DNA of 64,000 nt from Actinobacteria bacterium Ga0077560. Its GTDB lineage: Bacteria; Actinomycetota; Thermoleophilia; Miltoncostaeales; Miltoncostaeaceae. Positions 23,619 through 63,075 of the stretch are shown piece after piece. How positions within the stretch are numbered: position 1 is the stretch's first letter; the number at the start of each line of letters is the position of its first letter. Location of the stretch: NCBI GenBank assembly GCA_001464275.1, contig LNFL01000130.1:1-64000 (forward strand). The letters run 5' to 3'. The notes below the pieces were generated by a model, which searched no databases, had not been told where the DNA came from, and worked only from the letters and a program-made list of their open reading frames with translations. The position numbers and the translations under genes are program-made.

Positions 23619-24402
23619 CCGACATCCCCGCCCTGGCCGCCCGCATCGAGGCCCTGTACGAGCTGCCCGCCGCGGAGGCCGCCGCCGGCCGTGACGAGGT
23701 CGAGGAGGCCATCCGGCTGCTCGACACCGGCGAGATCCGCGTCGCCGAGCGCGGCGACGAGGGCTGGGTCGCCAACGAGTGGGTGAAGAAGGCCATCCTC
23801 GTGTACTTCCGGATCCGCGTGAACGAGCCCATCGAGCTCGGCCCGTACACCTACTTCGACAAGGTGCCGCTCAAGCGGGGCGTGCGCGTGGTTCCGCCGG
23901 CCGTGGCGCGGTACGGCTCCTACGTCGCCCCCGGCGCGGTGCTGATGCCCTCCTACGTCAACATCGGCGCGTGGGTGGGGTCCGGCACGATGGTCGACAC
24001 CTGGGCCACGGTGGGCTCCTGCGCCCAGATCGGCACCGACGTGCACCTCTCCGGCGGCGTGGGCATCGGCGGCGTCCTGGAGCCGCCGCAGGCCACCCCC
24101 GTGATCATCGAGGACGGTGCATCGTGGTGGAGGGCGCCGTGGTCGGCGAGGGCGCCGTCCTGGGGGCGAACGTGGTGATCACGGCCTCCACGCCCATCAT
24201 CGACGTCACCGGCGACGAGCCCGTGGAGTACCGCGGCTTCGTGCCGCCGTTCTCGGTGGTCATCCCGGGCACGCGCCCGAAGGAGTACCCGGCCGGCACC
24301 TACCAGCTTCCCGCGGCGCTCATCATCGGCCGCCGGTCGGCGTCCACCGACCTCAAGACGAGCCTGAACGATGCCCTGCGCAGCTACGGCGTGGCCGTCT
24401 AG
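23615..24402 (+). pseudogene. dapD: Tetrahydrodipicolinate N-succinyltransferase, frame broken by a small deletion
   Basis: Left-handed beta-helix enzyme that succinylates tetrahydrodipicolinate. The frame from GTG 23615 encodes the N-terminal domain and helix up to VIIEDG ([35 protein letters not shown]). At about 24115-24121 the match jumps frame: the rest, starting [20 protein letters not shown] and ending at the TAG at 24402, is in another frame. In E. coli-type DapD nine residues separate IIED and VVEG; here only 8 nt remain, so about 19 nt are missing. Both parts otherwise look functional, so this is a very recent mutation or an assembly error. Stop shares CTAG with dapF. Confidence 0.88.
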
Positions 24403-25205
24403 CTCAGCTTGAGCCGCTCGAGCAGGGCCGCGCTGATCTCGCCGGCGTAGACCGGCTCCGCGGGGCCGGTCATGGTGACCTGGAGATCGTCGGCCACGTC
24501 GATCACCAGGTCACCGCCCGGCAGGTGCACGGTCACCGGCGAGGCCATGCCGCCCAGCCGGATGGCGGCGGCCGCCGCCGCGCAGGCCCCGGTGCCGCAT
24601 GCCTGCGTCTCCCCGACCCCCCGCTCCCACACCCGCAGGGTCAGCTCGCCGGCCGCGTCCGAGCGGATGAACTCAACGTTTGTGCGATCCGGGAAGCGGG
24701 GGTCGACCTCCACCTGAGGTCCCAGCGCCGTGACCGCGGTGGCGGGGTCCGGGTGGGTGATGACCGCGTGCGGGTTCCCCATGGAGACCTCGGTGAACCG
24801 CACGGCGCCGGCGCCGGTGGCCAGCGGCTCCTCCCGTTCCCCCGCCGGGAACCGGGCGGCCCCCATCCGGACGCGGACGCGACCGTCGTCGCACATCGCC
24901 ACGTGCGTCGTCTCGGGGCCGGTGAGGACCGTGCCGTCGGCGGGAAGCCTGCCGTCACGCGCCAGGTACCTGGCGACGATGCGGATGCCGTTGCCGCAGT
25001 TCTCGGCGACCGACCCGTCCGCGTTCCACACGGTCATCCGGGGGACGCCGTCCTCCCAGCTGATCTCCAGCACGCCGTCGGCACCGATCCCGGTGAACGG
25101 ATCGCACATCGCCGCCGCCCGGGCGGCGGTCATCGGGAACGGCAGCGCCTCGCGCTCCACGACCACGTGATGGTTCCCCGTGCCCTGCCACTTCTCGAAG
25201 CGCAT
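24399..25205 (-). CDS. dapF: Diaminopimelate epimerase
   Basis: Converts LL- to meso-diaminopimelate with two cysteines as acid/base. The 268-residue protein has both catalytic sites: ENCGNGIR (first Cys) and ACGTGACA (second Cys), plus GADGVL, MGNPHAV and RVWERGVGET. The N-terminal motif reads QGTGNHHVVVE where most enzymes have GNDF, an oddity of two residues. ATG 25205 is 7 nt after a TACCCT -10 box. Convergent with dapD, sharing the CTAG that holds both stop codons. Confidence 0.94.
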   Translation of the reverse strand: MRFEKWQGTGNHHVVVEREALPFPMTAARAAAMCDPFTGIGADGVLEISWEDGVPRMTVWNADGSVAENCGNGIRIVARYLARDGRLPADGTVLTGPETTHVAMCDDGRVRVRMGAARFPAGEREEPLATGAGAVRFTEVSMGNPHAVITHPDPATAVTALGPQVEVDPRFPDRTNVEFIRSDAAGELTLRVWERGVGETQACGTGACAAAAAAIRLGGMASPVTVHLPGGDLVIDVADDLQVTMTGPAEPVYAGEISAALLERLKLS

Positions 25206-25231: not shown

Positions 25232-26176
25232 TCACGGCGCCGCGGCGGCCCGCCAGCGCTCCAGCAGGACGGGAAGGCCGTCCGTGGCCGGCCCGTCGCC
25301 CAGATCGAGCTCCCACGCGTCGGGCCAGCGGCGCAGCCACTGCAGCTGGCGCCGGGCGAGGCGCCGCGTGCGGGCCGCCAGCAGCTCCGGCAGCGCATCG
25401 GCGGCCACCTCGCCGCGATGGATGGCCGCCACCTCGCGGGCGCCGATGATCTGCAGCGGCTCCCGCCGCACCCCCGGGGTCTCCAGCGCGGCCTCCAGCT
25501 CGGCCAGCAGGCCGTCATCGAGCTCCCGCCGCACCCGGGTGGCGATGAGGGCGTCCAGCACCGGCCGGGGCCGGGTGACGGCCACCAGCAGCGTCGGGCG
25601 GCGCATGGAGCCGTCCCAGAGGCGGGCGCCGCCGCCCTCGCCCCCGGCCGCGGCGACCTCCAGGGCGCGCGCGAGGCGGCGCGGGTTGGCGAGGTCCACG
25701 CGCGCGGCCGCATCGGGGTCGCGCCGCAGCAGCTCCGTCCGGGCGGCCTCGGGGTCCGCCGCCACGAGCCCCTCGGCCCAGGGGCGCACGCCCTCTGGGG
25801 GCGGCGCCGGAAAGCCCAGGTCGGTGAGCGCCGCGCGCAGGTACAGCCCGGTCCCGCCGGTCACGACGGGCACGCGGCCCCGCGCCAGGATGTCGTCGAC
25901 GACGGCGTGGGCACGCCCGGCGAACTCCGCCGCGCTCGAGCCCTGCGTGAGGTCGAGGTCGCCCACCAGGTGGTACGGCACCTGCGCCAGGTCGGCGGCC
26001 CCCGGCGCGTCCGCGGCGACCTCCAGCCCGCGGTAGCGCTGGAACGGGTCGGCCACCACGATCTCCCCGTCCAGGGCGAGGGCCGCGGCGTGGGCGAGGG
26101 CGCTCTTGCCGGCCGCCGTCGGGCCGAAGATCGCGAGGACCCTCGCGGGCGATCCGTGCCCGGGGTCTGCGCTCAG
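25232..26176 (-). CDS. miaA: tRNA dimethylallyltransferase, apparent CTG start
   Basis: Adds dimethylallyl to A37 of tRNAs reading UNN codons. The P-loop FGPTAAGKSALAH lies at about residue 15; the substrate region VADPFQRYRGLEV (family: DSMQVY), GGTGLYLRA and the C-terminal RRLARRQLQWLRRW follow. There is no ATG, GTG or TTG in frame before the P-loop; the first one (GTG 26059) would delete it. A CTG at 26176 overlaps the miaB TGA as CTGA and gives an 11-residue lead-in, normal for MiaA (314 residues). I place the start there. Directly downstream of miaB, the next enzyme of the same modification. Confidence 0.85.
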   Translation of the reverse strand: MSADPGHGSPARVLAIFGPTAAGKSALAHAAALALDGEIVVADPFQRYRGLEVAADAPGAADLAQVPYHLVGDLDLTQGSSAAEFAGRAHAVVDDILARGRVPVVTGGTGLYLRAALTDLGFPAPPPEGVRPWAEGLVAADPEAARTELLRRDPDAAARVDLANPRRLARALEVAAAGGEGGGARLWDGSMRRPTLLVAVTRPRPVLDALIATRVRRELDDGLLAELEAALETPGVRREPLQIIGAREVAAIHRGEVAADALPELLAARTRRLARRQLQWLRRWPDAWELDLGDGPATDGLPVLLERWRAAAAP

Positions 26177-27495
26177 GCGGGCACCGCGGCGGGGACCTGC
26201 CGGCCGGTGAGCGTCGTGGAGGTCGCGCCGGTGATGTGGACGTCCACCAGGCTGCCCGGCGCCGCGTCACCCGTGAAGTTCACGGTGATGTTGTGGCTCA
26301 GGCGTCCGCGCAGGCGGGAGGGGTCGGTGCGCGAGGGACCCTCCACCAGCACCTCGCCGGTGGTGCCCACGAACCGCGCCGAACGCTCGCGCGCGACCTC
26401 CTGCACCAGCTCCACCAGCGCCTGGATCCGCTCCCGCTTGACCTCCGCGGGCACGTCGTCCTCCATCCGCTCGGCCGCCTCGGTGCCCGGCCGCGGGGAG
26501 TAGACGAACGTGTACGCCCCGTCGTAGCGCACCTCGCGCACCAGGCTCATGGTCTGCGCGAAGTCCTCGTCGGTCTCGCCCGGGAACCCGACGATGATGT
26601 CGGTGGTGAGCGACAGGTCCGGGATCGCGTCGCGCAGGCGGTGCACCAGCTCCAGGTAGCGCTCGCGCGAATAGGTGCGCCGCATGCGCCGCAGCACGTC
26701 CGTGGACCCCGACTGCGCGGGCAGGTGCAGGTGCCGGCACACCTCCGGGGTCTCCGCCATCGCGGCGATGACGTCCTCGCGCATGTCCTTCGGGTGCGGG
26801 CTGGTGTACCGCACGCGCCGGATCCCGTCGACCGCCGCGGCGGCGCGCAGGAGCTCCGCGAAGCTCATGCGCTCGTCCTTCGGCAGGTCCCGTCCGTAGG
26901 CGTTCACGTTCTGGCCCAGCAGCGTCACCTCGCGCACGCCGTCGTCGGCGAGCGCGCGGAGCTCGTCCACGATGTCCTGCGGGGTGCGGCTGCGTTCGCG
27001 TCCGCGGACGGCGGGCACGATGCAGTACGCGCACACGCAGTTGCATCCCACCGAGATCTGCACCCATGCCTGGTGCGGGCGGTCGCGCTTGGCCGGCAGG
27101 GTGCCGGAGAACGCGCCGTCGAAGCTGAACGCGCCGACCGCGTCGATCCGCTCCCGGGCGATGAGCTCACCCAGCCGCGAGACCTCGCCGGGGCCGAAGG
27201 CGATGTCCACGAAGGGGTACTGCTCGAACACCATCGCCTTCTGGGCCTGCGCCCAGCAACCGCCCACCGCCACGACCACGTCGGGGTTCTCGCGCTTGAT
27301 GCGGCGCGCGTCGCCCAGGTTGCCGGTGAACCGGTCGTCGGCGCTGCCCCGGATCGTGCAGGTGTTGAACAGGATGAGATCCGCGCCGTCGCGGGTCTCG
27401 GACTCCCGGTATCCGATCGACTCGAGCAGTCCCTTCATCCGCTCGGAGTCGTGGTCGTTCATCTGGCAGCCGAAGCTCGTGAGGTGGTAGCGCAC
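26173..27495 (-). CDS. miaB: tRNA-2-methylthio-N6-dimethylallyladenosine synthase
   Basis: Radical SAM methylthiotransferase that modifies i6A37 made by MiaA. The 440-residue protein has an N-terminal UPF0004 domain with three cluster cysteines (FGCQMND, NTCTIR, GGCWAQ), the radical SAM CxxxCxxC (GCNCVCAYC, near residue 150) and a C-terminal TRAM domain. GTG 27495 lies 8 nt after TATCAT; the longer open frame adds Arg/Gly-rich sequence with no family match. Its TGA overlaps the presumed CTG start of miaA. Confidence 0.94.
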   Translation of the reverse strand: MRYHLTSFGCQMNDHDSERMKGLLESIGYRESETRDGADLILFNTCTIRGSADDRFTGNLGDARRIKRENPDVVVAVGGCWAQAQKAMVFEQYPFVDIAFGPGEVSRLGELIARERIDAVGAFSFDGAFSGTLPAKRDRPHQAWVQISVGCNCVCAYCIVPAVRGRERSRTPQDIVDELRALADDGVREVTLLGQNVNAYGRDLPKDERMSFAELLRAAAAVDGIRRVRYTSPHPKDMREDVIAAMAETPEVCRHLHLPAQSGSTDVLRRMRRTYSRERYLELVHRLRDAIPDLSLTTDIIVGFPGETDEDFAQTMSLVREVRYDGAYTFVYSPRPGTEAAERMEDDVPAEVKRERIQALVELVQEVARERSARFVGTTGEVLVEGPSRTDPSRLRGRLSHNITVNFTGDAAPGSLVDVHITGATSTTLTGRQVPAAVPA

Positions 27496-60209: not shown

Positions 60210-63058
<2,849 letters not shown>

Positions 63059-63075
63059 CGTTCTCCTTCGAGAGA

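Follow-up and report, generated by a model that had tools for sequence, protein, structure and literature searches.

A probable CTG start codon for miaA at its overlap with miaB in a Miltoncostaeaceae genome

Where does translation of miaA begin when the first canonical start codon in its reading frame lies downstream of the codons for its ATP-binding loop? This question is raised by a 64,000-nucleotide stretch of DNA (the window) from Actinobacteria bacterium Ga0077560, whose genome is a MAG that is 84% complete. An earlier note on this DNA proposed that miaA starts at a CTG that overlaps the miaB stop codon. Our data support this proposal, in that a single NTG is available and the arrangement is kept in a sister species, and we regard the CTG start as likely rather than proven.

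The miaB-miaA junction

On the minus strand of the window, miaB (26173..27495) encodes tRNA (N6-isopentenyladenosine(37)-C2)-methylthiotransferase, with a GTG start at 27495 and a TIGR01574 score of 481 bits against a cut-off of 355.3. The gene ends in GTG CCC GCC TGA, with the stop codon at 26173..26175. It is followed on the same strand by miaA (25232..26176), which encodes 314 amino acids if read from the CTG at 26174..26176, and then by dapF, encoding diaminopimelate epimerase (24399..25205; TIGR00652, 231.7 bits). Elsewhere in the window, infB (IF2; 60210-63061, minus strand) is broken into two reading frames (61076-63061 and 60210-61187), with the IF2_N and GTPase domains in one frame and the later domains in the other, which is probably an assembly indel.

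MiaA is a putative tRNA dimethylallyltransferase, predicted to form i6A37 in tRNA. The protein passes the gathering score of the IPP transferase domain PF01715 (167.6 versus 23.6 bits) and matches MiaA entries in the PDB at E about 1e-32. Against the NCBIfam equivalog TIGR00174 it scores 140.8 bits, just under the curated cut-off of 148.65, so that the name rests on the domain, the P-loop, the miaB neighbour and the PDB matches. It is a divergent member of the family, with DPFQ at the site where other MiaA proteins have DSxQ. The P-loop pattern GPTA.GK[ST] is present as GPTAAGKS (26102..26125), and only when translation starts upstream of GTG 26059. Across 30 relatives, P-loop residues G18-T20 and G23-K24 never change, even though the codons for them differ.

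Stop to stop, the miaA frame spans 344 open codons (26266 to 25232), 30 of which lie upstream of the CTG. The earlier note had stated that the first canonical codon in this frame is the GTG at 26057..26059, past the P-loop, and that no ATG, GTG or TTG occurs before it; this is exact, and use of this GTG would delete the P-loop. The coding signal extends 27 codons upstream of GTG 26059, and over this region the miaA frame scores best, at 14.1 versus 9.3 for the next-best frame. We consider it very probable that miaA uses no canonical start. The lack of a canonical start upstream of an indispensable region, here the P-loop, is one of the traits expected of a CUG-initiated gene.

The CTG is the sole NTG in the miaA frame 5' of the P-loop. 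When ATG, GTG, TTG, CTG, ATT, ATC, ATA and ACG were all considered, this region held only CTG 26176 and an ATC at 26131, two codons before the P-loop. Reading from the CTG places 17 residues before the Gly of GPTA; the note had called the length right, and the leads in solved MiaA structures are comparable or shorter. The CTG does form a CTGA with the miaB stop (26176-26173), as had been described, and this is a same-strand 4-nt stop/start overlap if the CTG is the miaA start. Since TGA stops in this genome are preceded most often by C (63/112), CTGA by itself is weak evidence. No Shine-Dalgarno motif was found 4-10 nt upstream of the CTG, either in the window or in the sister species (locus L003).

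miaA starts among relatives and rival readings

We compared 40 miaA junctions from the family, in which G000 denotes the window's own genome and g1 its genus. G001, the one other g1 genome compared, encodes a MiaA with 81% identity and has the same CTG/TGA overlap (L003), with an N-terminus that is one codon shorter from CTG to P-loop. No other NTG occurs within 149 open codons upstream in its miaA frame. In six of the 40 junctions the P-loop is preceded by no ATG, GTG or TTG. These are those of both g1 genomes, L023 and L030 in genus g9, and L009 (G022) and L013 (the near-complete G025) in g12. In the two g12 cases there is neither a canonical start nor an in-frame CTGA before the P-loop, and the sole NTG codons are a CTG at -4 in both and a further CTG at -2 in G025. 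The earlier note had suggested looking in relatives for ATGA or GTGA where this genome has CTGA. At miaB-miaA we found none in 40 junctions, and the only canonical start at the orthologous position is a GTG at -15 in G015, where the congeneric G004 has CTG.

Genus g9 offers the most detailed view of the region. All 19 of its junctions have a CTG at codon -11 in overlap with the miaB stop, and 17 have a GTG at -5 as well. Codon -7 encodes Pro, with the third position free (CCG/CCC/CCT), or Ala; its second base is constant, and its differences are 73 synonymous versus 48 other. By this pattern the five codons between CTG -11 and GTG -5 look translated rather than spacer. This points to the CTG as the start also in genes that possess GTG -5. 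We considered GTG -5 as the general g9 start and rejected it, since the upstream codons vary like coding sequence and two members lack the GTG. Of the third positions in the eight final codons of miaB, only the last, a C in 19/19 g9 junctions, is invariant. The C before the miaB TGA is retained as well by genera in which it lies out of the miaA frame, which weakens its conservation as support for the start.

The same region bears on the possibility that miaA starts at a non-canonical codon nearer the P-loop, such as the GCG of codon -7 (MRVLAIFGPTAAGKS) or GTC, a Val codon, at -5. Many relatives have GTG at -5, the position of the window's GTC; the GTG that G005 has there comes immediately after the miaB stop and is its sole canonical miaA start, so a short MiaA N-terminus is viable. 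The miaA genes of G022 and G025, which lack both canonical starts and CTGA, point the same way, and the apparent GCG and TCG starts of rsfS described below mean that such codons are not dismissible. Against this, GCG -7 is not retained outside g1, the g9 codons upstream of -5 look translated, and CTG is a much better start codon than either GTC or GCG. We judge a start of this kind unlikely.

It is very unlikely that miaA lacks a start of its own and is made as a MiaB-MiaA fusion, by ribosomes that shift frame or hop close to the end of miaB. In favour are the adjacency of the genes and the 30 open codons upstream of the CTG. L023, however, has a TGA in frame six codons before its CTG, so that such an event would have very little space; neither the window nor L003 shows a slippery run at the junction, and most relatives have separate canonical miaA starts.

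A sequencing or assembly error that hides a true ATG or GTG at or near 26176 is highly improbable. The genome is an incomplete MAG, and the two-frame infB of the same window suggests indels; but the same arrangement in the sister species makes such an error unlikely, and a fault in a single assembly cannot account for G001 together with four more start-less miaA genes in the family, one of them in the near-complete G025. We therefore rejected this explanation. Initiation at GTG 26059, the forced choice of a gene finder restricted to ATG, GTG and TTG, would yield a MiaA without its ATP-binding loop and is hardly credible given the invariant P-loop residues and the coding signal upstream of that codon. 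We regard CTG 26176 as the probable miaA start.

CTG and other unusual start codons in the family

Stop-start overlaps are frequent in the window's genome, in line with what the earlier note had remarked of the window: in 481 kb of G000, coding onsets include 22 ATGA, 32 GTGA and 2 TTGA in-frame overlaps. At two other overlaps compared across the family, the exchange of CTGA for ATGA or GTGA that was absent from miaB-miaA does occur. The first is at dapL (loci L242-L271); from its position beside miaA in these contigs, we infer that the gene upstream of dapL is dapF. An NTGA overlap lies at the same N-terminal position of dapL in 29 genomes, as ATGA in 9, GTGA in 15 and CTGA in 5 (G025, G012, G005, G003 and G006). 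The start codon switches among ATG, GTG and CTG within genera: g12 has GTGA in G019 and G022 and CTGA in G025 and G012, and g3 has GTGA in G014 and CTGA in G003. The CTGA genomes have no canonical start ahead of the conserved [LI]PPY region; in G025, G012, G005 and G003 the CTG is preceded by GGAGGAGCT or GGAGGGGCT.

The second is at an uncharacterised gene of about 191 codons in the window's genome (L225:10721-11296, plus strand, G000:C134; orthologues L357-L371), whose product has no Pfam match. Its overlap is CTGA in both g1 genomes (G000 and G001) and again in G033 and G063, GTGA in G004, G010, G036, G064, G027 and G031, and ATGA in G006. Together, the patterns at dapL and at this gene indicate that, where stop and start codons overlap in this family, CTG can trade places with ATG and GTG as the start.

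We screened genome stretches for further cases with a simple codon score, and the resulting CTGA counts are small. G000 (481 kb) gave 7 in-frame CTGA overlaps at coding onsets without a nearby canonical start, with comparative support only for miaA and the L225 gene. Stretches of 400 kb each gave 7 such CTGA calls in G025, 4 in G012 and 2 in G009. The control G050, from another family of the same class, gave 4 CTG-only calls, none of them convincing: by eye, three have a plausible downstream ATG, and the remaining one, L218, is a weak ORF. Scanning for start-less genes by coding score alone picked up mirrored frames as frequent false positives, and we therefore retained only candidates backed by homology. 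Enrichment of Shine-Dalgarno motifs before CTG at coding onsets was weak (2.5x in G012, 2.1x in G009, and about 1 in G000, G025 and the control G050).

Several individual genes have CTG as a candidate start codon, and in three of these a good Shine-Dalgarno motif precedes it. These three candidates are glpA in G012 (L166:14678-16252, minus strand), with GGAGG and 7 nt upstream of the CTG and a TIGR03377 match from residue 8; a Ser/Thr kinase gene in G025 (L154:6470-7927, minus strand), with AGGAGG and 7 nt and no canonical start before the Gly-rich loop; and a gene for a DCC1-like protein in G009 (L193:10584-10949, plus strand), with AGGAG and 8 nt. An ABC ATPase gene has CTGA in both G012 and G025 (L179:9819-10640, minus strand; L149:7953-8777, plus strand). 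A different codon appears in a livG-like ABC ATPase gene of the window's genome (L133:1810-2592, plus strand, G000:C12), where no canonical start precedes the conserved N-terminus, and where AAGGAGG, six bases and then ATC suggest an ATC start.

In rsfS (loci L272-L327, e.g. L272, L273, L278 and L303; G000:C123:5177-5488, L302, in the window's own genome), one alignment column holds GCG in 16/35 and TCG in 14/35 family genomes, whereas it holds ATG in G045 and G060, and CTG in seven other members of the class Thermoleophilia. All 30 GCG or TCG genes have a Shine-Dalgarno-like motif at normal spacing. In 18 of the 35 family genomes the 36 codons that precede the DIV motif include no ATG, GTG or TTG, and in some g9 genes a TGA lies in frame three codons before the TCG. 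By this alignment, it is possible that rsfS starts at GCG or TCG in the family.

Known systems and a proposed reinitiation route

A 4-nt overlap is the commonest spacing of genes in prokaryotes (PMC12548453; see also PMC6728339). The miaB-miaA junction resembles NTGA termination-reinitiation pairs (PMC6728339, PMC12548453) in that the start shares two bases with the upstream TGA on the same strand, and the two genes belong to one tRNA-modification pathway. It differs from them in that N is C rather than A or G (or T), and in the lack of a Shine-Dalgarno motif at normal spacing, a motif in the upstream gene near the start being a usual, not universal, trait of such pairs; its coupling is putative.

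In such a coupled arrangement, a ribosome or 30S subunit would end miaB at the overlapping TGA and step back one base, initiator tRNA would pair with CUG, and translation would proceed into miaA, as at ordinary ATGA and GTGA termination-reinitiation pairs. Because the ribosome would be supplied by miaB translation and not by free recruitment, a poor start codon could be tolerated; with no Shine-Dalgarno motif at the normal distance, delivery by miaB translation would have to bear the load. MiaA output would then stay below that of MiaB and be tied to it, and ATG, GTG and CTG would be three evolutionarily interchangeable codons at such overlaps in the family. We infer CUG initiation in miaA, the reinitiation route and the low output alike.

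CUG makes up 0.024% of bacterial starts and has 0.86% of the efficiency of AUG in E. coli (quoted in PMC11497404), and switches to CUG were counted as 2/61,358 from AUG and 1/5,080 from GUG across 36 genome groups (PMC5622118). The codon pattern at dapL is well outside these switch rates. As in the rare CUG starts of other bacteria, the CTG at these loci would be the first codon of a real gene; it differs from them in recurring in several genes of one family and in interchanging with GTG and ATG at orthologous overlaps, at a frequency far higher than the switch rates quoted above. Our searches of the open-access literature turned up no description of CTG starts at overlaps between bacterial genes. 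The predicted CUG start of Caulobacter dnaA was discarded as a precedent, since that codon turned out not to be used in vivo (PMC8443254).

Another parallel is infC, likewise a translation-related gene, whose poor AUU, AUC or AUA start is conserved and is autoregulated by IF3; for miaA no comparable link to IF3 is known. We considered an altered initiator tRNA or a missing IF3 as the cause of relaxed codon choice and rejected both: the initiator-type anticodon arm GGGCTCATAACCC is normal and IF3 is present in these genomes, so no simple cause was found.

The start rule seems looser than usual in the Miltoncostaeaceae lineage. As a tentative reading, possible rather than probable, Miltoncostaeaceae and perhaps Thermoleophilia would have relaxed start selection, with CTG used routinely at core-gene overlaps in exchange with GTG and ATG, and with GCG or TCG starting rsfS at a conserved distance after a Shine-Dalgarno motif. 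Miltoncostaeaceae, a family of Thermoleophilia, includes Miltoncostaea with the named species M. marina and M. oceani, which make the lineage claim testable. If it is true, a lineage in which CTG replaces GTG and ATG in core biosynthetic genes would mean that start-codon stringency evolves. Annotation limited to ATG, GTG and TTG would then truncate real proteins, leaving MiaA without its P-loop, GlpA without its Rossmann motif and the kinase without its Gly-rich loop, and these overlaps would provide natural systems for how reinitiation at NTGA relaxes codon choice.
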